NCBI RefSeq assembly: GCF_001483745.1
Contig: NZ_LQBL01000003.1
Coordinates: forward strand, 125,425-189,424
Source of the DNA: Serinicoccus chungangensis
Lineage (GTDB): Bacteria > Actinomycetota > Actinomycetes > Actinomycetales > Dermatophilaceae
Reading direction: 5' to 3'
Length of the DNA: 64,000 nt
The notes beneath the pieces are model-generated. The model made no database searches. It was not told the origin of the DNA and worked only from the letters and a program-made list of their open reading frames with translations. Both the position numbers and the translations under genes were made by a program. Position 1 is the first letter of the stretch, and each line of letters opens with the position of its first letter. This document shows, in pieces, positions 1,048 through 63,574 of the stretch.

Positions 1048-1254
1048 CCCCGGTGGTGCACGAACGGTGCTGCGGACCGGTCGCCCTGGCGACCACCCTG
1101 CAGCACCATTTCTGCACCACCCCCGGTTTCGTGGCGAGCGACGAGGTGACCCGGCTCTGCACCGCAGCGGGCGGCATACCGAAGGATTGAACCAAGGGAC
1201 CATCTCCGCTGCAGATCTTGCGGGAGAGGCGTGCTCGGACGGCCTGCGCCCGCA

Positions 1255-1283
1255 TTGACTTCGTGGTGACCGGCCTGTAGAAC
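1255..1283 (+). promoter_or_regulatory. Promoter of the metYX leader
   Basis: A -35 box TTGACT (1255-1260) is followed by a 17-base spacer and a -10 box TAGAAC (1278-1283). The expected start of transcription, 7-8 bases downstream, coincides with the ATG of the short upstream ORF at 1291, so that ORF would be leaderless. Confidence 0.7.
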
Positions 1284-1290
1284 AGGACGC

Positions 1291-1326
1291 ATGACGAGCC
1301 GCTCCCGCCGAATGCGCCGCTGCTGA
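1291..1326 (+). CDS. Leaderless 11-residue upstream ORF ending in Cys-stop (putative cysteine-sensing leader peptide)
   Basis: The ORF encodes MTSRSRRMRRC and ends TGC-TGA. It begins 8 bases after the -10 box, as expected for a leaderless actinobacterial transcript. Its Cys and stop codons (1321-1326) lie in an 11-base segment, 1320-1330, that is exactly complementary to 1394-1404 nearer metY. Actinobacteria are known to place short cysteine-containing upstream ORFs before sulfur-assimilation genes, where ribosome stalling at Cys codons reports cysteine shortage. Here a single terminal Cys codon is used. Translation and regulation are inferred. Confidence 0.55.
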   Translation: MTSRSRRMRRC

Positions 1327-1404
1327 GCCCACCCCTCGCAGCCGACGCGCCGCGGACGACCCTTCTCCGCCCCGTCCCTCCCGCTGCTGAGGCGGGCTCA
1401 GCAG
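1320..1404 (+). promoter_or_regulatory. Putative attenuator with two exclusive RNA pairings upstream of metY
   Basis: CTGCTGAGCCC (1320-1330) is the exact complement of GGGCTCAGCAG (1394-1404). The 3' arm can also form a local hairpin: CTGCTGAG (1384-1391) pairs with CTCAGCAG (1397-1404) across a 5-base loop. The two pairings exclude each other, and a ribosome on the Cys-stop codons of the upstream ORF would cover the first arm. This is attenuator geometry. No U-run follows, so a Rho-dependent or translational mechanism is as likely as intrinsic termination. Confidence 0.5.
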
Positions 1405-1449
1405 AGTGACCAGCACCCTGCCACCCCCCAGCGAGAGACGAGACCTCCC

Positions 1450-2784
1450 TTGAGCACCTACAGCGACTTCGCCACCCGGCAGATCCACGCCGGCCAGACC
1501 CCCGACACCCAGACCGGCGCGCGCGCCCTGCCGATCTACCAGACCACCTCCTACGTCTTCGACGACGCCGACCAGGCAGCCGACCGGTTCGCCCTGGCCG
1601 AGCTCGGGCCGATCTACACCCGCATCACCAACCCCACCACCGAGACGGTCGAGAACCGCATCGCCGACCTCGAGGGCGGCGTCGGTGCCCTGCTCGTGGC
1701 CTCCGGCTCCTCGGCCGTCACCCTGTCGCTGCTCAACGTCGCCGGCGCCGGCGACCACATCGTCTCCTCCCCCAGCCTCTACGGCGGCACCCAGAACCTC
1801 TTCGCGCGCACCCTGCCCCGCCTGGGGATCGAGGTGACCTTCGTCGAGGACCCGGCCGACCCCGAGGCGTGGCGGGCCGCCGCGCGCCCGGAGACCAAGG
1901 CGTTCTTCGGCGAGACGATCGCCAACCCCAGCAGCGACGTGCTCGACCTGCGCGCGGTCGCCGACGTCGCGCACGAGGTGGGCGTGCCCCTCGTCGTGGA
2001 CAACACGGTCGCCACGCCCTACCTCTGCCGCCCGATCGAGCACGGCGCCGACGTCGTCGTGCACTCGGCGACGAAGTTCCTCGGCGGCCACGGCACCTCC
2101 ATCGCCGGGGTCATCGTCGACGCCGGCCGCTTCGACTACGGCCGCGGCGGGAGGTTCCCCGGCTTCACCGAGCCCGACCCGTCCTACCAGGGTCTGGTGT
2201 ATGCCGAGGCGCTGGGCGAGGGCGGCCTGCTCGGCGCCAACGTCTCCTACATCATCAAGGCGCGGGTCCAGCTGCTGCGCGACCTCGGGCCGGCGGTGTC
2301 GCCGTTCAACGCCTTCCTCATCGCCCAGGGGCTGGAGACGCTGTCGCTGCGCATCGAGCGGCACGTCGCCAACGCGCAGCGGGTGGCGCAGTGGCTGGAG
2401 GCGCACGACCAGGTGGCCACGGTGGCCTACGCCGGCCTGCCCGGCCACCCCTCGCACCGGCGGGCGCAGACGTACCTGCCCGGCGGTGCGGGTGCCGTCC
2501 TCGCCTTCGAGATCGAGGGCGGAGCCCCCGCCGGGCGCGCCTTCGTCTCGGCCCTGGAGCTGCACAGCCACGTCGCCAACATCGGCGACGTCCGCTCGCT
2601 GGTCATCCACCCCGCCAGCACCACCCACTCCCAGCTCACCCCGGAGGCCCAGCGGGCCGCGGGCGTGACCCCCGGGCTGGTGCGGCTCTCGGTCGGCATC
2701 GAGGGCATCGAGGACATCCTCGCCGACCTCGACCGGGGCTTCGCCGCCGCGGCCGCCGCGGCCCGCGGCACCGAGGCGGCCTGA
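1450..2784 (+). CDS. metY: O-acetylhomoserine aminocarboxypropyltransferase (O-acetylhomoserine sulfhydrylase)
   Basis: A PLP-dependent enzyme of the Cys/Met metabolism family, 444 residues, the usual length for MetY. It makes homocysteine from O-acetylhomoserine and sulfide in the cytosol. The PLP lysine is K209 in [11 protein letters not shown]. The GGTQN segment near residue 115 and the C-terminal [14 protein letters not shown] are typical of the family. The start is TTG at 1450, preceded by the purine-rich GCGAGAGACGAGA; no better start lies nearby. metX follows after one base, so the two are co-transcribed, downstream of a long leader (from about 1290) carrying a putative cysteine attenuator. 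Confidence 0.95.
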
Positions 2785-2785
2785 C

Positions 2786-3958
2786 ATGGCCACCGTGCCC
2801 CTCGAGGAGCACCCTCCCCGCTCCCGGCGACGGACCCAGCCGGTCGGCCCGCTCGCGCTGGAGTCCGGGGAGATCCTCGAGGACGTCCGGGTCACCTACC
2901 AGACCTGGGGCCGCCTCGCCGCCGACGGCAGCAACGCCGTCCTGGTGCTGCACGCGCTGACCGGCGACAGCCACGTCGTCGGGGAGCAGGGGCCGGGTCA
3001 GCCGACGTCCGGCTGGTGGCCGGGCCTCATCGGTCCGGGATGCCCGATCGACACCGACGAGTGGTTCGTCGTCGCACCCTCCGTCCTGGGCGGCTGCGGC
3101 GGCACCACCGGGCCGTCCTCGGCCGCGCCGGACGGCCGGCCCTACGGCAGCTCCTTCCCCCGTGTCACCGTGCGCGACCAGGTGCACGCGGAGGCCCTGC
3201 TGGCCGACCGCCTCGGCATCGACAGCTTCGCGCTCGTCGTGGGCGGTTCCGTGGGCGGGATGCGCTCGCTGGAGTGGGCCACCACCTTCCCGGACCGGGT
3301 GCGACGGTGCGTCGTCCTCGCCGCCAGCGCCGTGGCGAGCGCCGACCAGATCGCCTGGTCGGTGCCGCAGCTGCACGCCATCCGCCTCGACCCGGGCTTC
3401 CACGGCGGCGACTACTACCCCGGACCGGGACCCCGCGCCGGGCTGGAGATCGCCCGCCAGATCGCGCACACGACATACCGCTCCGCGGCGGAGCTGGCGC
3501 TGCGCTTCGGTTGCGGGGCGCAGGACGGGGAGGACGCGCTGCGCGGCGGCCGGTATGCCGTGCAGTCCTATCTCGAGCACCACGGCAAGAAGCTCGTGCG
3601 CCGGTTCGACGCCAACGCCTACCTCGTCCTCACCGAGGCGATGAACAGCCACGACATCGGGCGGGGGCGCGGTGGCGTCGCGGCCGCGCTGCAGCGGATC
3701 ACCGCGGAGCTCACCGTCGGCGTCGTGAGCAGCGACCGGCTCTTCACGCCGGCCGACGGGGAGGTCGTCGCGTCCGCGCCGACCTGCCGGGAGCTCGCGG
3801 TCATCGACAGCCCCTACGGCCACGACGCCTTCCTTGTGGAGACCGAGCAGGTCTTCGGGATCATCGCGCGAGCCCTCCGAGGTGGGGAGCCGGCGGCTCC
3901 GACCGTGCCCGCCACGCGGTCGGAGCTGCCGAGACTGGCCGGTACCGGCCTCTGGTGA
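2786..3958 (+). CDS. metX: Homoserine O-acetyltransferase
   Basis: An alpha/beta-hydrolase acyltransferase of 390 residues that acetylates L-homoserine with acetyl-CoA, giving the substrate of the preceding metY product. The expected catalytic triad is visible: Ser155 in GGSVGGMRS, Asp317 in SSDRLF and His346 in PYGHDAF. The early HALTGDSHVVG motif is also characteristic. The gene starts one base after the metY stop, which indicates an operon and translational coupling. After its stop lie a 22-bp repeat array and a G-rich minisatellite. Acetyl versus succinyl specificity cannot be read with certainty, but pairing with MetY favours acetyl. Confidence 0.95.
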   Translation: MATVPLEEHPPRSRRRTQPVGPLALESGEILEDVRVTYQTWGRLAADGSNAVLVLHALTGDSHVVGEQGPGQPTSGWWPGLIGPGCPIDTDEWFVVAPSVLGGCGGTTGPSSAAPDGRPYGSSFPRVTVRDQVHAEALLADRLGIDSFALVVGGSVGGMRSLEWATTFPDRVRRCVVLAASAVASADQIAWSVPQLHAIRLDPGFHGGDYYPGPGPRAGLEIARQIAHTTYRSAAELALRFGCGAQDGEDALRGGRYAVQSYLEHHGKKLVRRFDANAYLVLTEAMNSHDIGRGRGGVAAALQRITAELTVGVVSSDRLFTPADGEVVASAPTCRELAVIDSPYGHDAFLVETEQVFGIIARALRGGEPAAPTVPATRSELPRLAGTGLW

Positions 3959-6247: not shown

Positions 6248-7483
6248 ATGTGGATCCGCGACGTACGCCCCTGGGGCGGCCCGACCAGTGACGTCCGGCT
6301 CGAGGGCGGGCTGGTCGCCGAGGTGCGACCTCGGGACGACGAGGCCGACCGGCCGGCCGGTGCCCGGCACCCCGGGGCCGCGGGCGAGGAGGAGCTCGAG
6401 GGACGCGGTCGGCTGCTGCTCCCGTCCTTCAGCGACGTCCACGTGCACCTCGACTCGACCCGGCTGGGGCTGCCGTTCCGGCCGCACACCGGTGGTCCCG
6501 GGGTGTGGACGATGATGCTCAACGACCGGGCGCACTGGCGGGACGCCGAGGTCGGCGTCGTCGGACGGGCGACGCACACGCTGGGCCTCATGATCGCCCG
6601 CGGGGCCACCCGGGTGCGGTCGTTCGCGCAGGTCGACGTGGACTGCGGGCTGGAGCGGCTGGAGGCGGTCCTCGCCGCCCGCGAGACCCACCGCGACCGG
6701 GCCGAGGTGCAGGTCATCGCCTTCCCGCAGGCCGGGCTGCTGCGCGAGGAGGGGTCGGCCCGGGTGCTGGAGGACGCCCTGCGCGCCGGCGCGGACGTCG
6801 TGGGCGGCATCGACCCGTGCAGCCTGGACCGCGACCCGGTCCGTCACCTCGACCTCGTCTTCGACCTCGCGCAGCGGTATGCCGTGCCCGTCGACATCCA
6901 CCTGCACGAGCCCGGTGACCTGGGCCGCTTCTCCGCCGACCTGGTCTGCGAGCGCACCGCGGCCCTGGGGATGCAGGGGGACGTGCTCATCTCGCACGGC
7001 TACGGCCTGTGGGACGGCACCGAGTCCCAGACGCAGGGCCTCGTCGAGCGCCTGGCCGAGCTCGACATCGCCACCGCCACGGTCGCGCCGGGTGGCCGGC
7101 AGACGCTGCCGCTCGCCCGGCTCGCCGAGGCCGGCGTCCGGGTCGGGCTCGGTCAGGACGGCCAGCGCGACTACTGGTCGCCCTACGGCAACGGCGACCT
7201 GCTCGACCGCACCTGGCAGCTCGCCTTCACCCACGGCTTCCGGGCCGACGAGCTCGTCGAGCACGCGCTGGCGGTGGCCACCCGTGGCGGCGCCAGCATC
7301 ATGGACCGCGAGCTGCCCCGGCTGGCGGGCACCGCCGACCGGCCCGGGCTGGCGCCCGGCGACCGGGCCGACCTCGTGCTCGTCGCGGGCGAGACCCCGA
7401 CGTCCGTGGTGATGGACCGGCCGCAGGACCGCACCGTCCTGCACCGCGGCCGGGTCGTCGCCGACGGGCTCACCCTGACCTGA
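6248..7483 (+). CDS. Amidohydrolase family protein, cytosine deaminase-like
   Basis: A 411-residue metal-dependent hydrolase. HVHLD near residue 65 matches the first metal-binding motif of cytosine deaminase-type enzymes. HLHEP (about residue 218), ISHGYG (about residue 250) and LGQDGQRDYWSPYG (about residue 300) give the later metal ligands and the catalytic Asp. The C-terminal strand ends with GDRADLVLVAGETP, as usual for the superfamily. The start is taken at ATG 6248 rather than the in-frame GTG at 6218, because TAGTCT ends 7 bases before the ATG (leaderless) and the GTG lies in a terminator-like palindrome. The exact substrate cannot be told. Confidence 0.8.
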   Translation: MWIRDVRPWGGPTSDVRLEGGLVAEVRPRDDEADRPAGARHPGAAGEEELEGRGRLLLPSFSDVHVHLDSTRLGLPFRPHTGGPGVWTMMLNDRAHWRDAEVGVVGRATHTLGLMIARGATRVRSFAQVDVDCGLERLEAVLAARETHRDRAEVQVIAFPQAGLLREEGSARVLEDALRAGADVVGGIDPCSLDRDPVRHLDLVFDLAQRYAVPVDIHLHEPGDLGRFSADLVCERTAALGMQGDVLISHGYGLWDGTESQTQGLVERLAELDIATATVAPGGRQTLPLARLAEAGVRVGLGQDGQRDYWSPYGNGDLLDRTWQLAFTHGFRADELVEHALAVATRGGASIMDRELPRLAGTADRPGLAPGDRADLVLVAGETPTSVVMDRPQDRTVLHRGRVVADGLTLT

Positions 7484-7528: not shown

Positions 7529-9232
7529 TCACCGCCGGCGCAGGACCACCGACTCCCAGCCCGGCAGCGTCCCGTCGTGCAGCACGCCCGCGGCGCCCTC
7601 CGAGGTGGCGAGCACCACCTCGGACCCGTCCCACCCCTGCAGCAGCTCGGGCGGGACGACGAGGGGCTGCCGGGTGAAGGAGGCGAGGGTCAGCAGACCG
7701 ACGCCGTCGAGCTCTCGCTCGAAGGCCCACAGGTCCGGGTGGTCCATCGCCAGCGGCCGGACCGTCCCCCTGGCCACTACCTCCTCGTCGTGGCGCAGGG
7801 CCACGAGCGCGCGGTGGTGCTCCAGCACCGACCCGGGGACCCCGGTCTGGGCGGCCGCGTTGATCTGCACGTGGTTCGGGTTGATGCCGATCCACGGGTC
7901 CCCGCTGGTGAAGCCCGCGCCCGGCGCGTCCGTCCACTGCACAGGTGTGCGGGCGTTGTCGCGACCCACCGCGCGGATGCCCTCGAGCAGCTCCTCCGCC
8001 GGTCGGCCCGCCGCCTCCTGCTCGGCGACGTGGTTGAGCGCCTCGATGTCGCGCAGCTCGGACAGCGACGAGAAGGGGAGGTTCGTCATACCGAGCTCCT
8101 CCCCCTGGTAGATGAACGGCGTGCCGCGCAGCGTGTGCAGCACCGTCGCCAGGGTCTTGGCCGACCGCTCGCGCCACGCCGGGTCGTCGTCGCCGAAGCG
8201 GCTGACGGCGCGCGGCTGGTCGTGGTTGTCCAAGTAGAGCGAGTTCCAGCCGGTGTCCGCCAGCGCGGTCTGCCAGCCCATGAGGCTGGCCCGTAGCAGC
8301 GGCATGGTGATGGGCAGCCGGTCGAACTTGCCGCCCGGGCCGATCCCCAGGTCGACGTGCTCGAACTGGAACACCATGTCCACCTCCCCCCGGTCGGCGT
8401 CGGTGTAGAGACGCGCCTCCTGCGCGGTGACACCGGGCATCTCGCCCACGGTGAGGAAGGCGCGGGGGTGGTCGGCGAAGACGCGCTCGCGCATCTGCGC
8501 GAGGAACTCGTGGACCCGGGGGCCGTCGGCGACCAGCGCGAAGGCGTCACCGTCCGGCAGGTCCAGCGGCTTGGAGATGAGGTTGATGACGTCCATGCGG
8601 AAGCCGTCGACGCCACGCTCGAGCCACCAGCGCATCATCGCGTAGACGGCCTCCCTGACCTGCGGGTTCTCCCAGTTGAGGTCGGGCTGCTTGCGGCTGA
8701 AGAGGTGCAGGTAGTACTCCCCGCTCGCCGCGTCCCACTCCCACGCCGGGCCGGAGAAGAAGGAGCGCCAGTCGTTGGGCTCGGCGCCGGGCTCTCCCCC
8801 GGTGTGCCCGGGCCGCGCCGGGCGCCACCAGTACCAGTCCCGCCGGTCCGCCTCCGGGGAGGTCCGGCTGTCCTCGAACCACGGGTGCTCGTCGCTGGTG
8901 TGGTTGACCACGAGGTCCATGACGAGGCGTATGCCGCGCGCGTGCAGCTGCTCGACGAGCTCGTCGAGGTCGGCGAGGGTGCCGAAGGTGGGGTCGATGT
9001 CCTGGTAGTCGCTGATGTCGTAGCCGTTGTCGTCCTGCGGGCTGCGGTAGACCGGGCTGAGCCAGACCACGTCGACCCCGAGGTGCTCGAGGTGGTCCAG
9101 CCGGCCCAGGACGCCCCGCAGGTCACCGATGCCGTCGCCGTCGCTGTCGGCGAAGCTGCGGGGGTAGATCTGGTAGACGACGGCGGAGGACCACCAGTCG
9201 CGCGGGAGGGGCTCGTCGAGCGGCAGCGGCAT
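7529..9232 (-). CDS. Glycoside hydrolase family 13 alpha-glucosidase (oligo-1,6-glucosidase type)
   Basis: A 567-residue cytosolic enzyme without signal peptide. The GH13 conserved regions are clear: DLVVNHTSDEHPWF (region I), GFRMDVINLISK with the nucleophile Asp (region II), FLTVGEMPG with the acid/base Glu (region III) and YLDNHDQPR (region IV). The DVIN sequence after the nucleophile is found in alpha-glucosidases and oligo-1,6-glucosidases. The start is taken at ATG 9232, because TAGAGT ends 7 bases upstream (leaderless), rather than at the in-frame GTG 9241. The start codon lies in a copy of the GGTATGCCG nonamer. No sugar transporter is adjacent. Confidence 0.9.
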   Translation of the reverse strand: MPLPLDEPLPRDWWSSAVVYQIYPRSFADSDGDGIGDLRGVLGRLDHLEHLGVDVVWLSPVYRSPQDDNGYDISDYQDIDPTFGTLADLDELVEQLHARGIRLVMDLVVNHTSDEHPWFEDSRTSPEADRRDWYWWRPARPGHTGGEPGAEPNDWRSFFSGPAWEWDAASGEYYLHLFSRKQPDLNWENPQVREAVYAMMRWWLERGVDGFRMDVINLISKPLDLPDGDAFALVADGPRVHEFLAQMRERVFADHPRAFLTVGEMPGVTAQEARLYTDADRGEVDMVFQFEHVDLGIGPGGKFDRLPITMPLLRASLMGWQTALADTGWNSLYLDNHDQPRAVSRFGDDDPAWRERSAKTLATVLHTLRGTPFIYQGEELGMTNLPFSSLSELRDIEALNHVAEQEAAGRPAEELLEGIRAVGRDNARTPVQWTDAPGAGFTSGDPWIGINPNHVQINAAAQTGVPGSVLEHHRALVALRHDEEVVARGTVRPLAMDHPDLWAFERELDGVGLLTLASFTRQPLVVPPELLQGWDGSEVVLATSEGAAGVLHDGTLPGWESVVLRRR

Positions 9233-9256
9233 ACCGCCCACTCTAGGGTGGGCGCC

Positions 9257-9784: not shown

Positions 9785-11220
9785 GGCACGACCACCCACA
9801 GCCCGGCGGCGAGGACGAAGATGGCGAGGCCGAGCGTGGTCTCCATGACCGTCCAGGTCTTCAGGGTCGTCTTGACGTCCATCCCGAAGAACCGGCTGAC
9901 CAGCCAGAAGCCGGAGTCGTTGACGTGGGAGAGCACCGTTGCCCCGGCGGCGATCGCGAGGACCAGGCAGGCGATCTTGAGGTCGGACAGGCCCTCGGCG
10001 GTGACGGCCGCCGAGATGAGCCCGGCCGTGGTCGTCAGCGCGACCGTGGCCGAGCCCTGCGCGACCCGCAGCAGGGTGGCGATGAGGAACGCCGAGACGA
10101 TGAGGGGCAGGCCCAGGTCGGCCATGCTCTCGGACAGCGCGCCGCCGATGCCGGAGTAGCGCAGCACCCCGCCGAACATGCCGCCGGCGCCGGTGATGAG
10201 GATGATGGCGCAGATGGGGCCGAGCGCGTCGTTGAGCAGGGTCTCGACCGTCGCGAGCGACCGGCCCCGGGTGCCGAGGACGTAGGTCGTCACGAGCAGC
10301 GTGATGAGCAGCGCCACCGGCGTCTGGCCGATGAAGACCAGGGCGTCGAGGAACACGCTGTCGCCCAGCACCTCCGCCGAGCGCAGCGTCGCGATCCCGG
10401 TGTTGAGCGCGATGAGGACGAAGGGCAGGAGCAGGAGCCCGAGCACCAGCCCGAAGGAGGGCGGGGTCACCTCCTCCTCGCCCCGGGCGATGCGCTCGGC
10501 ACGCGCGTCGTCGTCGCCGTCGTCGAGGTCCGACGGCTCGCCCGAGACGGTGCCGCGGAGCATGGAGTCGTTGATCGGGACCATGATCTTGCCGGCGTAG
10601 GCGGTGGTGAAGAGGTAGACGCCGAGGTACCACGCGACGAAGGCGACGGGGATGCCGATGAGCATGCTGAGGCCGATGGAGCCGCCGAGCTCGGTGGCGG
10701 CGGTCACCGGGCCGGGGTGCGGCGGCACGATCGCGTGCATCGCGGCGAACGCGCCCGCGGCGGGGATGGCGTAGAGCAGCACGGAACCGCCGAAGCGTCG
10801 GGCCACCGAGAAGATGATGGGCAGGAAGACGACGAGGCCGGCGTCGAAGAAGATCGGTATGCCGAAGAGCAGGGCCGCGACACCGAGCGCGAACGGCGCG
10901 CGCTTCTCGCCGAACCCGCCGATGAGGGTGTCGGCGAGCACCTGGGCCCCGCCGGTCACCTCGAGCAGCCGGCCGATCATGGCCCCGAGCCCGACGAGCA
11001 GGGCCACCGCACCCAGGGTGCTGCCGAAGAAGCTCGTGGCCACCCCCGCCAGCTCGCCGAAGGGGATGCCCGCGGCGAGCCCGGTGAGGAAGCTGACCGT
11101 GATGAGCGCGACGAACGCATGCATCCGCAGCTTGATGATGAGGAAGAGCAGCACCGCGACGGCGACCGCCGCGATGGTCAGGAGCGTGCCCGCTCCGTAG
11201 ACGGGGTCCATCGGTTCCAT
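9781..11220 (-). CDS. gntP: Gluconate:H+ symporter, GntP family permease
   Basis: A polytopic membrane protein of 479 residues with about 12-14 hydrophobic segments. GntP-family hallmarks are the PPHPGP motif in the middle third (IVPPHPGPVTAATE) and the C-terminal SHVNDSGFWLVSRFF. It imports gluconate for the kinase encoded immediately downstream. The start is ATG 11220, with GGAG 9 bases upstream, in preference to longer in-frame starts. An Asp-rich loop near residues 215-235 is unusual but lies between membrane segments. Confidence 0.93.
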   Translation of the reverse strand: MEPMDPVYGAGTLLTIAAVAVAVLLFLIIKLRMHAFVALITVSFLTGLAAGIPFGELAGVATSFFGSTLGAVALLVGLGAMIGRLLEVTGGAQVLADTLIGGFGEKRAPFALGVAALLFGIPIFFDAGLVVFLPIIFSVARRFGGSVLLYAIPAAGAFAAMHAIVPPHPGPVTAATELGGSIGLSMLIGIPVAFVAWYLGVYLFTTAYAGKIMVPINDSMLRGTVSGEPSDLDDGDDDARAERIARGEEEVTPPSFGLVLGLLLLPFVLIALNTGIATLRSAEVLGDSVFLDALVFIGQTPVALLITLLVTTYVLGTRGRSLATVETLLNDALGPICAIILITGAGGMFGGVLRYSGIGGALSESMADLGLPLIVSAFLIATLLRVAQGSATVALTTTAGLISAAVTAEGLSDLKIACLVLAIAAGATVLSHVNDSGFWLVSRFFGMDVKTTLKTWTVMETTLGLAIFVLAAGLWVVVP

Positions 11221-11316: not shown

Positions 11317-11955
11317 TCAGACCAGGTCGACCCAGGCCTCCCCGTCCGTGCCGGGCACCGGCTCGGCCGCCCCACCGGTGAGCTCGGCGAGCAGGTCGGG
11401 CACGGCGTCCGCCCGGTCGACCGGCACCTGCAGCCGCAGCGTCACCTGCGAGCCGTAGCGGGTGTCCGCGATGTGCACGCCGCGGGCCCTGAGGTCGTGC
11501 TCCAGGCGCCCTGCCACCTCGTGCCCCACCCGCACGTCCACCTCGCGGACCCGGGCCCGGGTGAGCAGCCGCGCCTCGTCGAGGGCGAGGCGGACGGCGC
11601 CGGAGTAGGCGCGGACCAGCCCGCCGGTGCCGAGCCTGGTGCCGCCGAACCAGCGCGAGACGACGGCGACCACGTCGGTCACCCCCGCGTGCGTGAGCGT
11701 CTCGAGCATCGGCATACCGGCCGTCCCTGCCGGCTCGCCGTCGTCGTTGCTGCGCACCGTCGCGGCGTCCGGGCGGAGGACGAAGGCCGAGCAGTGGTGC
11801 CCGGCGTCCCAGAGGGTGGACCGGGCCTCCTCGACCACGGCGCGGGCCCCGTCCTCGTCCTCGACCCGGCGCAGCCAGCACTCGAAGACCGAGCGCCGCT
11901 CCTCGGTGCGCACCACGACGGGCGCGGCGAGGGTGCGGCAGGTCGTCGGCTCCAC
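11317..11955 (-). CDS. YigZ/IMPACT family protein
   Basis: A 212-residue protein with the UPF0029 N-terminal domain (residues 1-110: RSVFECWLRRV, DDGEPAGTAGMPML, VVSRWFGGTRLGTGGLVRAYS) and the small C-terminal ferredoxin-like DUF1949 domain. The family is linked to translation control in eukaryotes; its bacterial role is unsettled. The start is GTG 11955, with TACCCT ending 6 bases upstream, consistent with a leaderless transcript. It is divergent from the CopC-like gene, and a GGTATGCC copy lies between the two promoters. Confidence 0.9.
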   Translation of the reverse strand: MEPTTCRTLAAPVVVRTEERRSVFECWLRRVEDEDGARAVVEEARSTLWDAGHHCSAFVLRPDAATVRSNDDGEPAGTAGMPMLETLTHAGVTDVVAVVSRWFGGTRLGTGGLVRAYSGAVRLALDEARLLTRARVREVDVRVGHEVAGRLEHDLRARGVHIADTRYGSQVTLRLQVPVDRADAVPDLLAELTGGAAEPVPGTDGEAWVDLV

Positions 11956-12000
11956 CCGGGCAGGGTATGCCGTCCAGGTGCGCCGCCTAGACTTCTCGGC

Positions 12001-13735: not shown

Positions 13736-14842
13736 TCAGCGCCTGTAGTCCCCGACGACCCGCACCGCGCCGCCGTCGACCCCCTTGGCTCCCTGCACGA
13801 CGTCCGGACCGGTCGCATCCTCCCCCGCCACCTCGACGGTCCCCACCGGCCAGGTCTGTATGCCGTTCTCCTCCAGGAGCGCGACCGCCCGGTCGGCCTC
13901 CGCGGGGGCCACGACGGCGACGAACCCCACCCCCATGTTGAGCGTCTGCTCGAGGTCGGCCAGCGGCACCTGCCCCAGCTCCTGCACCAGCGTGAAGATC
14001 GGCGGCAGCTGCCAGGTCCGCTCCACCGTCGCCAGCATCCCCGGTGGCAGCACCCGGGCCAGGTTGGCCGCCAGCCCGCCACCGGTGACGTGCGACAGGA
14101 CGTGTAGGTCCGGCCCCGCCGCGCGGACCAGCTCGAGCAGCGGCCGGGTGTAGATGCGGGTCGGCTCCAGGCACTCCTCCCCCAGGGTCCGCCCGAGCTC
14201 AGGCACCTCCCGCTCCCAGCCCCACCCCGCGGCCGCGACGACGCGGCGCACGAGGGAGTAGCCGTTGCTGTGCAGGCCCGAGCTGGCCAGCGCCAGCACG
14301 ACGTCGCCCGCGGCGACCCGCTGCGGACCCAGCACCGCGTCGTGCTCGACGACACCCGTCGCGGCCCCGGCGACGTCATACTCGTGGGGGTCGAGCAGAC
14401 CGGGGTGCTCGGCCGTCTCGCCACCCACCAGGGCGACGCCCGCCAGCTCGCAGCCGCGCGCGATGCCCGCGACGATCGCGGCGATCCGCTCGGGCACCAC
14501 ACTGCCGCAGGCGATGTAGTCGGTCATGAACAGCGGCTCGGCCCCGCTCACGACGATGTCGTCGACCACCATGCCGACGAGGTCCTGGCCGATGGTGTCG
14601 TGGACGTCCATCGCCTGGGCGACCGCCACCTTGGTGCCGACCCCGTCGGTCGAGGTCGCCAGGACGGGCCGCCGCATCCCCTGCAGCGCAGACGCGTCGA
14701 ACATCCCCGCGAAACCCCCCAGCCCACCGAGGACCTCCGGACGCTGCGCCCGCCGTACCGACTCCTTCATGAGCTCGACGGCGCGGTCGCCGGCGTGCAC
14801 GTCGACGCCCGCGCTGGCATAGGTGATCGGCTGGTCGCTCAT
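13736..14842 (-). CDS. purM: Phosphoribosylformylglycinamidine cyclo-ligase
   Basis: A 368-residue enzyme of purine synthesis that closes the imidazole ring of aminoimidazole ribotide using ATP. Family motifs: YASAGVDVHAGDRAV at the N-terminus, STDGVGTKVAVA (about residue 65), GGETAEHPG (about residue 140) and HVTGGGLAANLARVLP (about residue 250). The start is ATG 14842, with a GAGGGG sequence upstream; the longer in-frame reading has no family similarity. It is on the same strand as purF, separated by one small gene, a conserved actinobacterial neighbourhood that also includes DUF3073. Confidence 0.96.
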   Translation of the reverse strand: MSDQPITYASAGVDVHAGDRAVELMKESVRRAQRPEVLGGLGGFAGMFDASALQGMRRPVLATSTDGVGTKVAVAQAMDVHDTIGQDLVGMVVDDIVVSGAEPLFMTDYIACGSVVPERIAAIVAGIARGCELAGVALVGGETAEHPGLLDPHEYDVAGAATGVVEHDAVLGPQRVAAGDVVLALASSGLHSNGYSLVRRVVAAAGWGWEREVPELGRTLGEECLEPTRIYTRPLLELVRAAGPDLHVLSHVTGGGLAANLARVLPPGMLATVERTWQLPPIFTLVQELGQVPLADLEQTLNMGVGFVAVVAPAEADRAVALLEENGIQTWPVGTVEVAGEDATGPDVVQGAKGVDGGAVRVVGDYRR

Positions 14843-14947
14843 CGCGGGTCCCCTCGGGGCGTGGCGGTGGGTGGGCACCCCCAGCGTATGCCGAACCGCA
14901 CCCCGTCGACGCCCCGCCCGGTCGGGCACGGCCGGGGACGACCGGGC

Positions 14948-19700: not shown

Positions 19701-19834
19701 GCGGATCTCCTTCGGGCGCCGGCCGTCACGGGCCGGTGACGCCGGGAGGCCCCTCGCCTCCGCCGGGGCGTCGGGGGCTCAGAGCGCCCCCGCCCCGCCG
19801 GGATACATCACCGGTATGCCGCGCCGCGCCTCGC

Positions 19835-32004: not shown

Positions 32005-32012
32005 GGACAGGT

Positions 32013-35026: not shown

Positions 35027-35073
35027 GGAGGCAGAGTAGGGCCAGCGGCGCGGCATACCTAGAATCTGCTCCT

Positions 35074-49060: not shown

Positions 49061-50260
49061 ATGAAGCTGGCCTCCAGGCTCGACAACCTCGGCACCGAGA
49101 CCGCGTTCGCGGTCGCCGCGGCCGCCGCCGACTGGAAGGCGCAGGGCCACGAGGTCTTCCCCTTCCACCTGGGCGACCTCGACGTCCCGCTGGCCGGCCA
49201 CATCGTCGAGGCCATGAACGCCGCCATCGCGGACGGCAAGACCGGCTACTGCCCGGGGCCCGGCATACCAGAGCTGCGGGCCGCCCTCGCCGACGACATC
49301 GGCTCCCGCCGCGGGATGTCGTTCGGCCCGGACGAGGTGACCGTGATGACCGGCGGCAAGCCGGTCATCACCAAGTTCCTCCAGGCCGTGATGAACCCCG
49401 GTGACGAGGTGCTCTACCCCAACCCCGGCTTCCCCATCTACGAGAGCCAGATCGAGTACCTCGGCGGCCACGGGCGCTCCTACCGCTACCTGCCGACCGA
49501 CGACGGTTTCCGGATCGACCTGGACCAGGTCCGCGACGCCATCACGGACAAGACGGTCGCGATCATCTACAACGACCTGCAGAACCCCATCTCGGCCGAG
49601 TCGACGGACGCCGAGCGGGAGGCGATCGCGCAGCTCGCCATCGAGCACGACCTGTGGGTGCTCTCGGACGAGGCCTACTTCGAGATGCGCTACGAGGGCA
49701 CGTCGACCTCCATCGCGAGCCTGCCGGGCATGCGTGAGCGCACCTGCATCCTCTACACCTTCTCCAAGAAGTTCGCGATGACCGGCTCCCGCCTCGGCTG
49801 CGCGGTCGCGCCGGCCCAGATGAGCACGGTCTTCTCCACGATGAACACCAACGACGAGTCGTGCACCACGCACTACGTCCAGTGGGCGGGGATCGCCGCG
49901 CTGACGGGCACGCAGGAGCCGGTGGCCGACATGCTCGCCACGCTGAAGGCGCGCCGGGACGCCGCGTGCGAGATCGTGGGCGACACCCCGGGTATGTCCG
50001 TCGAGACCCCGCGCTCGACCTTCTACCTCTTCCCGGACGTCACCGAGGCGATCCAGATCGTGGGGGCGCGGGACGTCGGCGACTTCGCCACCCAGGCCCT
50101 GCACGCGACCGGGGTGAGCTTCTGCACCCGCAACCACTTCGGCCGCCCGCAGCCCGGGGAGGACCGCAGCTACATCCGGTTCGCCTACTCGGGCCTCCCG
50201 GAGGAGCAGATCCGGCGCGGTCTGGGCGGGCTGCGCGACTGGATCGGCAGCCACGCATGA
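49061..50260 (+). CDS. Class I aminotransferase (AspC-like)
   Basis: A 399-residue PLP enzyme. The lysine is in YTFSKKFAMTGSRLG; other conserved parts are YCPGPGIPELRAALADDI, YNDLQNPISAES and SDEAYFEMRYEG. The usual NPTG motif reads QNPIS here. The stop overlaps the start of the next gene by 4 bases (ATGA), which ties its product to a 2-hydroxyacid dehydrogenase: the likely pathway is amino acid to 2-oxoacid (for example serine to hydroxypyruvate) and reduction. This link is inference. Confidence 0.88.
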   Translation: MKLASRLDNLGTETAFAVAAAAADWKAQGHEVFPFHLGDLDVPLAGHIVEAMNAAIADGKTGYCPGPGIPELRAALADDIGSRRGMSFGPDEVTVMTGGKPVITKFLQAVMNPGDEVLYPNPGFPIYESQIEYLGGHGRSYRYLPTDDGFRIDLDQVRDAITDKTVAIIYNDLQNPISAESTDAEREAIAQLAIEHDLWVLSDEAYFEMRYEGTSTSIASLPGMRERTCILYTFSKKFAMTGSRLGCAVAPAQMSTVFSTMNTNDESCTTHYVQWAGIAALTGTQEPVADMLATLKARRDAACEIVGDTPGMSVETPRSTFYLFPDVTEAIQIVGARDVGDFATQALHATGVSFCTRNHFGRPQPGEDRSYIRFAYSGLPEEQIRRGLGGLRDWIGSHA

Positions 50261-51219
50261 GCCGGGTGGTCGTCACCGGCCGGATCCCCAAGCCGGGGCT
50301 GGACATCCTGCGTCGCGCCGGTCACGAGGTCGACGTCTGGGACAGCGAGGACCAGCAGCCGCGCGAGCAGCTGCTCGAGCAGGTCCGCGGCGCCGACGCG
50401 CTGCTGACGCTGCTGACCGAGCAGGTCGACGCCGAGCTGCTGGACGCCGCCGGCGACCAGCTGCAGGTCGTCGCCAACGTCGCGGTGGGCTACAACAACG
50501 TCGACGTGGAGGTATGCCGTGAGCGCGGCGTCGTCGCGACGAACACCCCCGGGGTGCTCACCGAGGCGACCGCGGACATCGCGATGGGCCTCATCCTCAT
50601 GGCGACCCGCCGGCTCGGTGAGGGCGAGCGCATCATCCGCTCGGGCACCCCGTGGCAGTGGGGCATGTTCTACCTGCTCGGGTCGGGGCTGCAGCGCAAG
50701 ACGCTCGGGGTCGTCGGGCTCGGGGGCATCGGCGCGGCCACGGCACGACGTGCCCGGGCCTTCGGGATGAACGTCATCTACTCCTCGCGCTCCCAGGCCC
50801 CGCGCGAGCTGGAGCTCGAGCTGGGGGCGCACCGGGTGGACCTGGACACCCTGCTGGCGGAGAGCGACGTGCTCTCCCTGCACTGCCCCTACTCCCCCGC
50901 CACGCACCACCTGCTGGGGCCCGAGCAGTTCGCCGCCATGAAGCCCACGGCCTACGTGGTCAACACCGCCCGCGGACCGGTCATCGACGAGGCGGCGCTG
51001 GCGAAGGCGCTGCAGGAGAGGCAGATCGCCGGGGCCGGGCTGGACGTCTTCGAGGACGAGCCGCAGGTCCACCCCGACCTGCTGGAGTGCGAGAACGCCG
51101 TCCTCGTGCCGCACCTCGGCTCGGCGACCATCGAGACCCGGACCGCCATGGCCACGCTCGCCGCGGACAACGCCGTCGCCGTGCTCGCCGGCGAGGAGCC
51201 CCCCACGCCCATCCGCTGA
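50257..51219 (+). CDS. D-isomer 2-hydroxyacid dehydrogenase (glyoxylate/hydroxypyruvate reductase type)
   Basis: 320 residues. The NAD(P)-binding motif is VVGLGGIGAATARRARAFGM. Catalytic residues are Arg in VNTARGPVID, Glu in FEDEP and His in LVPHLGSATIETR. NVAVGYNNVD near residue 75 is typical of glyoxylate/D-glycerate dehydrogenases. Translationally coupled to the preceding aminotransferase. Confidence 0.92.
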   Translation: MSRVVVTGRIPKPGLDILRRAGHEVDVWDSEDQQPREQLLEQVRGADALLTLLTEQVDAELLDAAGDQLQVVANVAVGYNNVDVEVCRERGVVATNTPGVLTEATADIAMGLILMATRRLGEGERIIRSGTPWQWGMFYLLGSGLQRKTLGVVGLGGIGAATARRARAFGMNVIYSSRSQAPRELELELGAHRVDLDTLLAESDVLSLHCPYSPATHHLLGPEQFAAMKPTAYVVNTARGPVIDEAALAKALQERQIAGAGLDVFEDEPQVHPDLLECENAVLVPHLGSATIETRTAMATLAADNAVAVLAGEEPPTPIR

Positions 51220-53176: not shown

Positions 53177-55006
53177 ATGCCCGACATCACGACCACCGGT
53201 GGCACCCGCCACGCCGCGCTGGACGCCTGGGTGAGGGAGGTGGCCGCCCACACCCGCCCGGACCGTGTCGTCTGGGTGGACGGGTCCGACGAGGAACGGC
53301 GCACCATCGAGCAGATCCTCGTGGCCGCGGGCACCGCCAGCCCGCTCGCCGAGGAGCGGATCCCGCACTCCTACCTGGCGCTGTCGGACCCCGACGACGT
53401 CGCCCGGGTCGAGGACCGCACCTTCATCTGCTCGGTCGAGGAGAAGGATGCGGGGCACACCAACAACTGGGTGGCGCCGCAGCAGATGAAGGACGAGCTG
53501 TGGCCGCGGTTCGCCGGCTCCATGGCCGGCCGGACGATGTACGTCATCCCCTTCGTCATGGGCCACCTCGACGCCCACGACCCCAAGTTCGGCGTGGAGC
53601 TGACCGACAGCCCCTACGTCGTCGCGTCCATGCGCATCATGGCGCGGGTCGGCACCCCGGTGCTGGAGCGCATGGAGCAGTTCCAGGCCCCCTACGTCCA
53701 GGGACTGCACTCGCTCGGGGCGCCGCTGCAGCCGGGCGAGCAGGACGTGCCCTGGCCCTGCAACGAGGACAAGTACATCGTGCACTTCCCCGAGGAGCGG
53801 GCCATCTGGTCCTACGGCTCGGGCTACGGCGGCAACGCGCTGCTCGGCAAGAAGTGCTACGCCCTGCGGATCGCGTCGGCCATCGCCCGCGACGAGGGCT
53901 GGATGGCCGAGCACATGCTCATCCTCAAGCTCACCGGCCCGGACGGGGCCGTGCACTACGTCGCCGGCGCCTTCCCCTCGGCCTGCGGCAAGACCAACCT
54001 GGCGATGATCCGCCCGACGGTGCCGGGGTGGACCGCCGAGCTCGTGGGGGACGACATCGCCTGGATGCGCTTCGGCGAGGACGGCCGCCTGTATGCCGTG
54101 AACCCGGAGTTCGGGCTGTTCGGCGTGGCCCCGGGCACCAACGCCCGCACCAACCCCGTGGCGATGGAGACGATCGAGGCCGGGAACTCGATCTTCACCA
54201 ACGTGGCGCGCACGCCGGAGGGCGGCGTGTGGTGGGAGGACCTGACCGAGGAGGAGCCGCCCGAGCTCACCGACTGGCACGGCCAGGCCTGGTCCCCCGG
54301 CAGCGGCCGCACGGCCGCGCACCCCAACAGCCGCTTCTGCACCCCCATCACCCAGGTGCCGACGCTGGCGCCGGAGTACCACCGGCCGGACGGGGTGCCG
54401 ATCTCGGCGATCCTCTTCGGCGGGCGCCGCAGGACGACGGTGCCGCTGGTGACGCAGGCCCGCGACTGGCAGCACGGCACCTTCCTCGGCGCCACCCTCT
54501 CCTCGGAGACCACCGCCGCCGCCAAGGGCGCCGTCGGGGTCGTCCGCCGCGACCCGATGGCGATGCTGCCCTTCATCGGGTACGACGCGGGCGACTACCT
54601 GGGCCACTGGCTGGAGGTCGGCAAGCAGGCCGACGCCTCCCGGCTGCCCCAGATCTTCCTGGTCAACTGGTTCCGCCGGGACGCCGACGGCTCGTTCCTG
54701 TGGCCCGGCTTCGGCGAGAACTCCCGGGTGCTGACGTGGATCGTCCGACGGCTGGAGGGCGAGGTCGAGGCGCAGGAGTCCCCCATCGGCTACCAGCCCC
54801 TGCCGGAGGACCTGGACGTGTCCGGCCTGGACCTCACCACGCAGGACGTGGCGGCAGCGCTGGAGTTCGACGCCGCCGAGTGGGAGGCTGAGCTTCCCTT
54901 GATCAAGGAGTGGTTCGCCGCCTTCAACCCCGGGTCCCTCCCGGCGGCGATGGAGGACGAGCTGGCCATCCTCGAGCAACGACTGCAGGAGGTCACCCAC
55001 CCATGA
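53177..55006 (+). CDS. pckG: Phosphoenolpyruvate carboxykinase (GTP)
   Basis: A 609-residue gluconeogenic enzyme converting oxaloacetate and GTP to PEP. The GTP-type signature is [13 protein letters not shown] (about residues 264-276), holding the P-loop and reactive Cys. Other parts are [25 protein letters not shown] and [17 protein letters not shown] lies 7 bases before ATG 53177. The leader has a 9-bp hairpin (53118-53141). The next gene overlaps by 4 bases. Confidence 0.97.
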
Positions 55007-55577: not shown

Positions 55578-57176
55578 ATGACTGACTCCCGTGGCTCGTC
55601 CGACCCCGGGTCCGACGCACCCGCGCCGCGGTCGCGGTCGAGCGCCGAGCAGCCGGAGCAGGGCGAGGGGGTCGGTCGGGCGGCAGGGCTGACCACGCTC
55701 AGCGCGGTCGTGCCGGGGGCGGGGCTGCTGGGCACGTCACGGCGGCGCCTGGGTCTGGTGATCCTGGGGCTGGCCGCGCTCGCCCTGGTCGTCCTGGCCG
55801 CATACGCGCTCACCAACGGGCTCACAACCACGGCCCTGCAGACCGCTGCCGACACCGGGCGGCTGCGGACCATCGCGGTGGTGCTCGTGCTGGGGACGCT
55901 GGTGTGGGTCGCGGCCATCGCCCTCACCGCGCTCGCTGCGGCGCCGCGGCGTCTCTCCCGCGGCCAGCGGGCTGCCCTGACCACCCTGACGGCCGTGCTG
56001 TGCCTCGCGGTGACCGCTCCCGCCGTGCTCGGGGTCCGCTACATCTCCGCCCACGTCGACGCGGTGGACAAGGTCTTCGAGGCCGGCGGGGGCACCGTCG
56101 GCGGGGGCGGGAGCAGCAGCGGCGCGACCCCCACCTCGGTCGTCGGCGACGACCCGGACGACCCGTGGAAGGACCTGCCCCGGGTCAACGTCCTGCTGCT
56201 GGGCTCGGACGCCGCCGAGGCCCGGGAGGGCACCCGCACCGACACCATGATCGTCGCCAGCATCGACACGCGGACCGGCGACAGCGTGCTCTTCTCGGTC
56301 CCGCGCAACCTGCAGAACGTCCCCCTCCCCCGCGACAACCCGCTGCACGAGGTCTACGGCCCGGTCTACGACTGCGGCGACCAGTGCCTCATGAACAGCA
56401 TCTGGACCGAGGCGGAGCTCACCGCGCAGGAGCACCCGGAGTGGTACGCCGACGACCCTAACCCGGGTCAGACCGCGACGCGCGAGGTGCTCTCCGGGAT
56501 CCTCGGCATACCCATCCACCACACGGTCATCGTCAACATGCGCGGCTTCGCCGACCTCGTCGACGCGATGGGGGGCGTGCTCGTCAACGTGCAGGAGCGC
56601 ATCCCGATCGGGGGCTCCACCTACACGGACGCCAACGGCACCCTGCAGCTGGACCCCACCTCCGACTACGAGTGGCTGGAGCCGGGACCGCAGCGGCTGG
56701 ACGGGCCGCAGGCCCTGGCCTACTCCCGCTCCCGGGTGACGACCGACGACTTCTCCCGCATGCGACGGCAGCGGTGCATGGTGGCGGCGGTCGTGGACCA
56801 GGTCAACCCCATGACCATGCTGCAGCGCTACCCCCAGATCATCGGCGCGGTGGGCGACAACGTGCTCACCGACCTGCCGCAGGAGGACCTCGACGAGTGG
56901 GCCGGCCTGGTGCTGCAGGTCCAGGACGGCACCATGCGCAGCCTGCCGTTCACCGGCGCCAACATCGACACCGTGGACCCGAACTACTCGCAGATCCGCG
57001 CCCGGGTCTACGAGGCGCTCAACCCGGCGCCGGAGCCCCCGGCGCCGGAGCCGAGCGAGGCCCCCACGGCCCGCGACGACGCCGCGCCGACCACGGAGCC
57101 GCCCGCGCCGGACACCCCGACGACGACCGAGGAGCCCAGCGACGAGCTCGAGGACGTCGGCGCCGTCTGCGACTGA
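55578..57176 (+). CDS. LytR-CpsA-Psr (LCP) family protein
   Basis: 532 residues. A disordered cytosolic start is followed by three membrane helices (about residues 55-155) and an extracytoplasmic LCP domain (residues 195-490): NVLLLGSDAAEAREGTRTDTMIVAS, SVPRNLQ, INMRGF-like VIVNMRGFADLVDAMGGV and AYSRSRVTTDDFSRMRRQR carry the conserved Arg and Asp residues. LCP proteins attach polymers such as teichoic acid or arabinogalactan to peptidoglycan. A Pro/Glu/Thr-rich tail ends with Cys. GAAAGG precedes the ATG. Confidence 0.93.
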   Translation: MTDSRGSSDPGSDAPAPRSRSSAEQPEQGEGVGRAAGLTTLSAVVPGAGLLGTSRRRLGLVILGLAALALVVLAAYALTNGLTTTALQTAADTGRLRTIAVVLVLGTLVWVAAIALTALAAAPRRLSRGQRAALTTLTAVLCLAVTAPAVLGVRYISAHVDAVDKVFEAGGGTVGGGGSSSGATPTSVVGDDPDDPWKDLPRVNVLLLGSDAAEAREGTRTDTMIVASIDTRTGDSVLFSVPRNLQNVPLPRDNPLHEVYGPVYDCGDQCLMNSIWTEAELTAQEHPEWYADDPNPGQTATREVLSGILGIPIHHTVIVNMRGFADLVDAMGGVLVNVQERIPIGGSTYTDANGTLQLDPTSDYEWLEPGPQRLDGPQALAYSRSRVTTDDFSRMRRQRCMVAAVVDQVNPMTMLQRYPQIIGAVGDNVLTDLPQEDLDEWAGLVLQVQDGTMRSLPFTGANIDTVDPNYSQIRARVYEALNPAPEPPAPEPSEAPTARDDAAPTTEPPAPDTPTTTEEPSDELEDVGAVCD

Positions 57177-57191
57177 GTTCCCCCGGTATGC

Positions 57192-57230
57192 CGAAGGCCC
57201 CCGCCACCTCGAGGGTGACGGGGGCCTTCG
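57192..57230. terminator. Bidirectional terminator
   Basis: CGAAGGCCCCCG and CGGGGGCCTTCG arms with a partly paired centre. It lies between the LCP gene and the convergent cold-shock gene; a GGTATGCCG copy overlaps its left edge. Confidence 0.8.
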
Positions 57231-58921: not shown

Positions 58922-58923
58922 GG

Positions 58924-62460: not shown

Positions 62461-62464
62461 GCGC

Positions 62465-63046
62465 TCAGCGGGCGACGTCGCTGCGGGAGAAGTTCGACCA
62501 GGACCGGCTGGCGGTGGGCCCCCGCTGGCCCTGGTAGTGGCTCCCCTTCTCCGAGCTGCCGTAGGGGTGCTGCGAGGCCGAGCTCAGCCGGAAGAAGCAG
62601 AGCTGACCGATCTTCATCCCCGGGTGCAGCACGATGGGCAGGGTGGCCACGTTGGACAGTTCCAGGGTCACGTGACCGGTGAAGCCCGGGTCGACGAACC
62701 CGGCCGTCGCGTGCGTGAGCAGCCCCAGCCGCCCCAGCGAGGACTTGCCCTCGACGCGGGCAGCGATGTCGTCCGGGAGGCTCACCTGCTCGTAGGTGGA
62801 CCCGAGCACGAACTCACCCGGGTGGAGCACGAAGCTCTCCTCCGGCTCGACCTCCACCAGGCGGGTCAGGTCGGGCTGCTCCTGCGCCGGGTCGATGACG
62901 GGGTACTTGTGGTTGTCGAAGAGCCGGAAGTAGCGGTCCAGCCGGATGTCGACGCTGGAGGGCTGGACCATCGTCGGGTCCCACGGGTCCAGCCGGACCC
63001 GCCCGGAGTCGATCGAGGCGAGGATGTCGCGGTCGGAGAGCAGCAC
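62465..63046 (-). CDS. dcd: dCTP deaminase
   Basis: A 193-residue trimeric nucleotide hydrolase. Family parts: [47 protein letters not shown] (substrate site and catalytic Glu) and [11 protein letters not shown]. The C-terminus [19 protein letters not shown] is the lid region. Actinobacterial forms of this type can make dUMP directly; this is known for related enzymes and not readable here. Confidence 0.95.
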
Positions 63047-63072
63047 GACGACACCCTAGCCGGGGGGTGACT

Positions 63073-63102
63073 TTGGTCGTGGACACCCGGGGTGGTTATC
63101 AT
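63073..63102 (+). promoter_or_regulatory. Promoter of tRNA-Gly(CCC)
   Basis: TTGGTC (63073-63078), 18 bases, TATCAT (63097-63102); the tRNA begins 26 bases after the -10 box. Confidence 0.65.
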
Positions 63103-63127
63103 GACTGTCGCCTCGATCCGAGGCCGC

Positions 63128-63201
63128 GCGGGCGTAGTTCAATGGTAGAACATCAGCTTCCCAAGCTGAATACGCGAGTTCGATTCTCGTCGCCCGCTCC
63201 A
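63128..63201 (+). tRNA. tRNA-Gly (anticodon CCC)
   Basis: The acceptor stem is GCGGGCG/CGCCCGC, the anticodon loop TTCCCAA gives CCC (reads GGG), and the T arm is GAGTTCGATTCTC. CCA is encoded (63199-63201). Confidence 0.95.
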
Positions 63202-63211
63202 CGCGCCGGAC

Positions 63212-63574
63212 TCAGTAGCCTGGCCCCCGGGGCTGCTCGGCCCCCGACCCCCGCAGGTGGTGGGTCACCCACGCGGCATACCTGTCGAGGGCGTCGACGA
63301 CGGGCACGGCCATGATCTCGGGCACCTCGTAGGGATGCAGCGACCGCACGGTCTCGCAGAGCCGGCCGAAGGCCTCCCTGGAGGTCTTGGCCAGCAGCAA
63401 CCACTCCTTGCTCTCGTGCACCTCCCCGCTCCAGCTGTAGATCGAGGTCATCGGCCCCAGAACCTGCACGCAGGCGGCCGCCCGCCGGGCGACGAGCTCC
63501 TCACCGATGTGCCGGGCGGACTCCATCGAGGGCACGCTGACGCGGACCTCCACCAGATGGGACGGGTCGGTCAT
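63212..63574 (-). CDS. cutA: CutA divalent-cation tolerance family protein
   Basis: A 120-residue trimeric ferredoxin-like protein. Typical parts are the RAAACVQVLGPMTSIYSWSGEV segment (split here at its middle) and LHPYEVPEIMAVPV. The role in metal tolerance is disputed. It lies between tRNA-Gly and the class III aminotransferase gene and may be co-transcribed with the latter (24-base gap). Confidence 0.92.
   Translation of the reverse strand: MTDPSHLVEVRVSVPSMESARHIGEELVARRAAACVQVLGPMTSIYSWSGEVHESKEWLLLAKTSREAFGRLCETVRSLHPYEVPEIMAVPVVDALDRYAAWVTHHLRGSGAEQPRGPGY

Follow-up and report, generated by a model that had tools for sequence, protein, structure and literature searches.

A stretch of 64,000 nucleotides from the actinobacterium Serinicoccus chungangensis (family Dermatophilaceae; assembly GCF_001483745.1, contig NZ_LQBL01000003.1, positions 125,425 to 189,424 of the forward strand), referred to here as the window, carries the octamer GTATGCCG in 35 copies where about 1.2 would be expected. 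This core word, which has a common longer form, GGTATGCCG, and is replaced in one clade of the family by a second word, CGAAGGGGG, is probably a DNA-uptake-sequence-like word with dialects, read by a competence system of the Tad/Flp-pilus type. That selection or drive acts on the DNA word, and not on codons, is well supported.

The core word and its statistics

The first-pass annotation of the window, made from the letters only, had singled out the octamer GGTATGCC and its continuation as the nonamer GGTATGCCG. Recounting gave the same 24 copies of GGTATGCC (10 plus, 14 minus) and 23 copies of GGTATGCCG (10 plus, 13 minus), with the annotated coordinates correct within one base, and the G+C content, estimated at about 72%, was measured as 73% (23,616 C and 23,082 G in 64,000). 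The annotation had expected roughly one nonamer by chance; the rarity stands, and the value is lower, as 100 dinucleotide shuffles of the window gave a mean of 0.24 and a maximum of 2. When every 7- to 10-mer was counted, the true core proved to be GTATGCCG. The G that precedes it in the nonamer is a preference only, present in 70% of 210 copies (22 stretches of the same genome plus the window), and G directly after the core is seldom seen in this genome (22/202 copies); its dialect can be written as GGTATGCCG followed only rarely by G. In the 3' half of GTATGCCG, several variants that differ by one base are raised as well, up to 5.8-fold, and might represent decay products of the word.

The whole genome (3,556,988 bases in 33 contigs) contains 1,103 copies of GGTATGCCG, 555 forward and 548 reverse, compared with six of the reversed word, and 1,518 copies of the core, 752 forward and 766 reverse, compared with 32 of its reversed control. 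This amounts to one core copy per ~2.3 kb, and relatives reach one per ~0.7 kb. The word is also balanced inside contiguous stretches, with 49 plus against 55 minus copies over 300 kb of contig C2, 33 against 30 over 100 kb of C3, and 17 against 18 in the window, and its spacing is near random (coefficient of variation 0.98 over 300 kb). The nonamer had been called oriented; an orientation along the chromosome is contradicted by these strand counts.

The frame independence of the copies had been taken as an argument for selection on the DNA word, to be checked under a codon-aware model. The null models were run on 464 kb (20 stretches of 20 kb from the same genome plus the window, 13% of the genome), in which a simple codon-usage caller found 420 genes, about 89-90% of the sequence being coding. 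Among the 202 core copies in this sample, 168 lie in genes, whereas 40 within-gene shuffles of synonymous codons gave a mean of 13.2 and a maximum of 19, an excess of ~13-fold that upholds the earlier argument. The three sense frames hold 3, 9 and 102 copies (0.17, 1.87 and 7.77 expected), and the three antisense frames hold 9, 28 and 17 (0.57, 1.37 and 1.37 expected). All six reading frames are thus raised, about 5- to 20-fold, and the excess is therefore not a single codon-pair effect. The commonest coding setting is Tyr-Ala with the codon TAT, and the synonymous TAC version, GTACGCCG, is depleted (21 vs 60.8 expected). Between genes, 32 copies occur in 48.8 kb, compared with 168 in 414.8 kb of genes, an intergenic density 1.6 times higher.

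Distribution, dialects and conservation

A comparison with relatives, which the first-pass annotation had proposed, found the word abundant in many members of the same family. In an order-wide sample of 297 genomes drawn evenly, 24 of them from the family of the window, the genomes rich in GGTATGCCG were family members only, and the highest count outside the family was 61 in 8.3 Mb (reversed word, 8). Within a family sample of 186 genomes from 53 genera, core copies ranged from 7 to 4,724, the maximum being found in 4.2 Mb; the densest genome, G440, has 4,205 in 3.1 Mb. When genomes with over 150 GTATGCCG per Mb are classed as rich and those with under 40 per Mb as poor, the 186 divide into 105 rich in GTATGCCG, 19 rich in CGAAGGGGG, 46 poor and 16 between. 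High-quality genomes (at least 90% complete and at most 5% contaminated) number 162, comprising 91 GTATGCCG-rich, 18 CGAAGGGGG-rich, 41 poor and 12 between. Genera g4, g6, g9, g11 and others are poor in GTATGCCG throughout, and single poor species occur in rich genera, namely G319 (50 copies), G330 (37) and G395 (19), the last compared with 3,681 and 1,062 in its congeners G396 and G397. A scan of named genomes for ComEC, mostly Streptomyces, included four loci (L107-L110) taken as belonging to the family of the window; Humibacillus xanthopallidus showed 13 core copies in 22 kb, an uncultured Phycicoccus and Dermacoccus abyssi showed none in 22 kb each, and the 76 other loci of the scan held 15 in 1.41 Mb. 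The NCBI families Intrasporangiaceae and Dermacoccaceae are united by GTDB in Dermatophilaceae.

The core is common to the word-bearing genera and its flanks vary by genus, for example CCGTATGCCGCTGRGC in G213 and GGTATGCCGCG in G164. Abundance of the second word, CGAAGGGGG, is confined to genera g5 and g9 (19 genomes, 797-1,939 copies each), the other 167 family genomes having at most 80; the g5 and g9 genomes hold at most 41 copies of GTATGCCG, and no family genome is rich in both words. Like the core word, CGAAGGGGG is strand-neutral in whole genomes and also over 12 stretches, with 53 against 63 copies; example loci in the two genera are L027-L030 and L068-L073. In a tree of 29 ComEC sequences, drawn with a midpoint root for display and containing one long outgroup branch, the four sequences from g5 and g9 group as a single clade (100/99), which is nested within the GTATGCCG lineages, and the word-lacking G330, G395 and g11 sit within GTATGCCG groups. 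Because of this nesting, the simplest reading of the tree would be one switch to CGAAGGGGG and several losses of the word. Dialects thus follow phylogeny, the flanks by genus and the second word by clade. A further dialect in genus g8, GTACGCC, was considered and rejected: it is raised only about two-fold at order 5, and other actinobacteria carry many copies of CGTACGCC (409 in 1.41 Mb). No clear word was found in genera g4, g6 and g11 in ~119 kb of one genome each.

Conservation was assessed in four congeners, whose aligned sequence is 84-92% identical to the window. The word is retained at 26/31, 22/30, 22/29 and 15/28 of its sites, compared with 66, 58, 47 and 42% for 8-mers matched in composition (P 0.02, 0.06, 0.002 and 0.14 by one-sided binomial tests, significant singly in two of the four), and this higher conservation adds to the codon-aware null, the six frames and the intergenic copies in favour of selection on the word. 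The rare codon TAT is retained in 39/47 cells when it falls within the word, compared with 18/34 elsewhere (Fisher P 0.006; four related genomes, so that the cells are non-independent). Six word sites could be aligned in the word-poor G319, and none of them holds the word.

The word is scarce in one piece of mobile DNA. The contig end C2:1-27.6 kb (loci L001 and L002), which encodes a TrwC relaxase, a tyrosine integrase and an ISL3 transposase and is lower in G+C in parts, contains one GTATGCCG where 12.7 are expected (P 4e-5, for a single island whose edge was set after the words had been seen). In the window, at about 36000-48000, four word copies stand in a stretch without alignment in any of the four congeners, and accessory DNA is therefore not always word-free.

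All copies of GTATGCCG in the window are listed below with position, strand and gene context, and with the result of alignment to the four congeners where the site was identical in all of them or unaligned.

1172..1179, minus, intergenic
2199..2206, plus, in gene, Tyr-Ala frame; identical in 4/4 congeners
3553..3560, plus, in gene, Tyr-Ala frame
6877..6884, plus, in gene, Tyr-Ala frame
8929..8936, plus, antisense in gene
9227..9234, minus, outside called genes
10857..10864, plus, antisense in gene
11710..11717, minus, in gene; identical in 4/4 congeners
11965..11972, plus, outside called genes
13858..13865, plus, antisense in gene
14886..14893, plus, outside called genes; identical in 4/4 congeners
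17034..17041, minus, in gene; identical in 4/4 congeners
18642..18649, minus, in gene, Gly-Met-Pro frame
19814..19821, plus, outside called genes
22727..22734, plus, antisense in gene; identical in 4/4 congeners
22897..22904, minus, in gene
25191..25198, minus, in gene, Tyr-Ala frame
28535..28542, minus, in gene
30302..30309, plus, in gene
31279..31286, minus, in gene
32011..32018, plus, outside called genes
32948..32955, plus, in gene; identical in 4/4 congeners
33313..33320, minus, intergenic; identical in 4/4 congeners
35051..35058, minus, intergenic
37281..37288, minus, in gene; no alignment in 4 congeners
41384..41391, minus, in gene; no alignment in 4 congeners
42836..42843, plus, in gene; no alignment in 4 congeners
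42982..42989, minus, antisense in gene; no alignment in 4 congeners
48704..48711, minus, in gene
49261..49268, minus, antisense in gene
50512..50519, plus, in gene, Val-Cys-Arg frame; identical in 4/4 congeners
54091..54098, plus, in gene
56504..56511, minus, antisense in gene
57186..57193, plus, intergenic
63274..63281, minus, in gene

A separate repeat was observed in the same DNA. Units of 22 bp that share CGCGTCCGGTGC form short tandem arrays at 3985-4066, 13645-13730, 24765-24888 and 62355-62412 of the window; eleven such arrays occur in the 464 kb, every one outside called genes or at gene edges, and CGCGTCCGGTGC at 22-base spacings is also found in the congeners G324 and G308. The unit length corresponds to about two helical turns.

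Competence genes and the tad-2 cluster

A check for competence genes, also suggested by the first-pass annotation, identified ComEA, ComEC and two tad clusters in the genome of the window, the ComEA, with SLBB and helix-hairpin-helix domains, adjoining ComEC. ComEC is present in 24/24 and in 47/49 genomes tested, word-bearing and word-lacking alike, and loss of ComEC was rejected as the cause of word loss. An apparent truncation of ComEC in G319 is an artefact of a contig end (contig C11 is 8,504 bases long); the match is split in G404, a genome that is 89% complete, possibly by a sequencing error, and lies in two places in G384. As these anomalies are doubtful, the state of ComEC was not used as evidence. 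Tad-type ATPases occur in 24/24 genomes tested, and the ATPase of the first cluster, tad-1, was found in all 20 genomes fetched. A simple presence or absence of a receptor gene tracking the word was sought in tad-1 and was not found. In Micrococcus luteus, transformation requires both tad clusters (PMC4322843).

The second cluster, tad-2, has the order tadA-tadB-tadC-flp-tadE-tadF-tadG and stands beside prfB in four of the loci examined; its location in the genome of the window is as follows.

C2:40,354-45,132 (locus L003), tad-2 cluster

A profile search for the TadF of tad-2 gave matches in 169/186 family genomes. With strong TadF defined as E below 1e-20 and tested on the 162 high-quality genomes, it was found in 105/109 word-rich and 30/41 word-poor genomes (Fisher P 1e-4, related genomes being non-independent; the 12 in-between and 24 lower-quality genomes were left out). 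At the level of genera, at least one member with strong TadF was found in 28/28 word-rich and 10/16 word-poor genera (Fisher P 0.001), the in-between genera g96, g100, g101 and g103 being left out and g122, with TadF in two of three members, being counted as having it. Every one of the six genera that lack the tad-2 minor pilin is word-poor. As strong TadF is found in nearly all word-rich genomes and also in many word-poor ones, tad-2 looks close to needed for the word and not sufficient.

One of the single word-lacking species has a broken tad-2 cluster. In G395, flp, tadE and tadF do not adjoin tadC, and at C1:270257-310514 (part in L220) TadF lies ~40 kb from TadA, compared with ~3 kb in its congener G397, so that the stretch is ~37 kb longer; six open reading frames (ORFs) from the stretch next to tadC gave no Pfam match. 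As side evidence, searches for Tad ATPases returned none in G387, none over the cut-off in G385 and one in their congener G386. In the genera with the second word, the tad-1 TadE ORFs in L100-L103 (g5, g9) have a second cysteine near the end that the versions compared from g1, g2 and g7 lack, a difference that may offer a lead to the switch of specificity.

Proposed uptake model, rival explanations and known systems

The annotation had compared the density of the word with that of DNA uptake sequences or Chi-like sites. The former likeness fits by strand neutrality, density, dialects by clade and competence genes. From the word, its statistics, dialects, distribution and conservation and from the presence of these genes, we infer an uptake process with sequence preference, in which free DNA would enter cells of the family by way of a pilus of the Tad/Flp type, ComEA and the ComEC channel. 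A component of this machine exposed at the surface would bind the word and confer a preference for the DNA of kin; the TadE/TadF minor pilin of tad-2 is a candidate for this receptor, a guess drawn from gene distribution. Word-bearing fragments would recombine into the chromosome more often, and by such recombination the word would accumulate. Accumulation of this kind would account for copies on either strand, in every frame and in intergenic DNA, and for the near absence of the word from a conjugative-type island. Lineages would use dialects that differ in the longer context from genus to genus and, in one clade, replace the word entirely by CGAAGGGGG, and the word would be lost from a lineage whose machine had been lost or changed.

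Several observations weigh against this uptake model. ComEC was missed in two of the 49 genomes tested, both word-rich (G337, 58% complete; G442, in 760 contigs). PilM is absent in 24/24 genomes tested, which rules out a type IVa pilus and, with it, a machine like those of Neisseria and Haemophilus. Word-poor genomes often keep the machinery, as the 30/41 with strong TadF indicate (g11, 12/12), and the word-lacking G319 and G330 keep tad-2 pilins. Conversely, four of the 109 high-quality word-rich genomes are without strong TadF, namely the drafts G122 and G224 and the one-contig G322 and G380, the last of which belongs to the CGAAGGGGG clade. G322, complete in one contig, has 994 words and a weak TadF match; its best Tad ATPase match is split over two frames, and a reading of the scores suggests that it has no ATPase of the tad-2 type. 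The conservation of word sites is significant singly in only two of four congeners, and the reversed-word control is raised in some genera (578 vs 1,660 in G329; 453 vs 1,142 in G213), perhaps through overlap with the extended GCCGTATGCC context. Moreover, word switches are known too for the HIP words of cyanobacteria, which are tied to methyltransferases (PMC4390886).

The last point belongs to the strongest rival, a HIP1-like word that plays no part in uptake. Mismatch repair linked to methylation, or some other biased repair process, would create and maintain such a word, and a change of methyltransferase would be followed by a switch of word. HIP1 is an abundant cyanobacterial octamer; certain lineages use alternate words, each paired with a methyltransferase that matches it, and the existence of some word-rich genomes without strong tad-2 TadF would suit such an origin. 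HIP words are palindromic, however (PMC4390886), whereas GTATGCCG and CGAAGGGGG are non-palindromic; at the genus level the distribution of the word follows that of the tad-2 pilin, and one island is nearly word-free. An origin of this kind thus appears unlikely. A site with an architectural role, bound by a protein that organises the nucleoid or by another DNA-binding protein, would match a word that is strand-neutral, spread near-randomly and often present in 1,000 to 4,700 copies per genome, but would predict neither the complete replacement of the word by an unrelated one, nor its loss from individual species, nor the link to tad-2, and is considered improbable.

The second likeness drawn by the annotation, to a Chi-like or chromosome-polarity word guiding recombination or segregation (the Chi sites of RecBCD, AddAB or AdnAB, the FtsK-orienting polar sequences known as KOPS, or the architecture-imparting sequences known as AIMS), was not borne out. 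The density of the word is within the range of Chi sites. Chi, KOPS and AIMS words are polarised along the replichore, whereas plus and minus copies of both GTATGCCG and CGAAGGGGG are near equal in contiguous stretches, in assemblies where oriC and ter were not located, and because polarity is lacking in such stretches this explanation does not fit. The word is also patchy within one family, and repair systems would be expected to be universal; a guiding function of this type is very improbable. A codon or codon-pair artefact would draw on the ~60% of coding copies in one frame (102/168) and is ruled out by the synonymous shuffle (13 vs 168), the excess in six frames and between genes, and the depletion of GTACGCCG.

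Returning to the uptake model, the wider proposal that a Gram-positive family has evolved sequence-specific self-recognition in natural transformation, independently of Neisseriaceae and Pasteurellaceae, has in our estimate about an even chance of being correct. Under this proposal the word would be read by a minor pilin of a Tad/Flp competence pilus, genera would have their own dialects, and an unrelated word would once have replaced it completely. If true, the proposal would provide an independent Gram-positive case with a different pilus, implying that self-labelled DNA uptake evolves repeatedly, and many members of the family would be naturally transformable now or recently, with a known key for DNA entry. 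The natural series of same core, changed flanks, switched word and lost word would then serve to locate the receptor and to test selection against molecular drive as the origin of such words. A search of the open-licence literature, with subscription papers and preprints outside its scope, found no uptake sequence for Actinobacteria, and of the words themselves one was found, in the portions of text available, only in an unrelated tandem-repeat context.

Among known systems, Micrococcus luteus shares with the family its membership of the Micrococcales, ComEA and ComEC, and two tad clusters of similar order (tadA-B-C-flp-tadE/F-tadG), and differs in that no uptake word is mentioned for its transformation in the available part of PMC4322843. 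HIP1 resembles the words described here in being a highly iterated octamer for which certain lineages have alternate words, and differs in being palindromic and tied to methyltransferases (PMC4390886). Sequence-preferring uptake is named for Neisseriaceae and Pasteurellaceae in PMC3630211 and PMC1939737. According to the same texts, the uptake signal sequences (USS) of Pasteurellaceae have a 9-mer core, two main versions in the family, and genic as well as over-expected intergenic copies, all of which recall the present case; sequence, phylum and pilus type are different, and the two words here are without an evident common core. The DNA uptake sequences (DUS) of Neisseriaceae, as described in PMC3630211, are likewise short words whose copies number between ~1,000 and a few thousand, whose dialects agree with the phylogeny and which occur with competence machinery, whereas the word here is unrelated, its hosts are Gram-positive actinobacteria, and Tad/Flp genes take the place of type IVa. 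The Neisseriaceae protein ComP has no known counterpart here, TadE/TadF of tad-2 being a candidate by gene distribution. The DUS dialects of Neisseriaceae and the USS of Pasteurellaceae are the closest known kinds.

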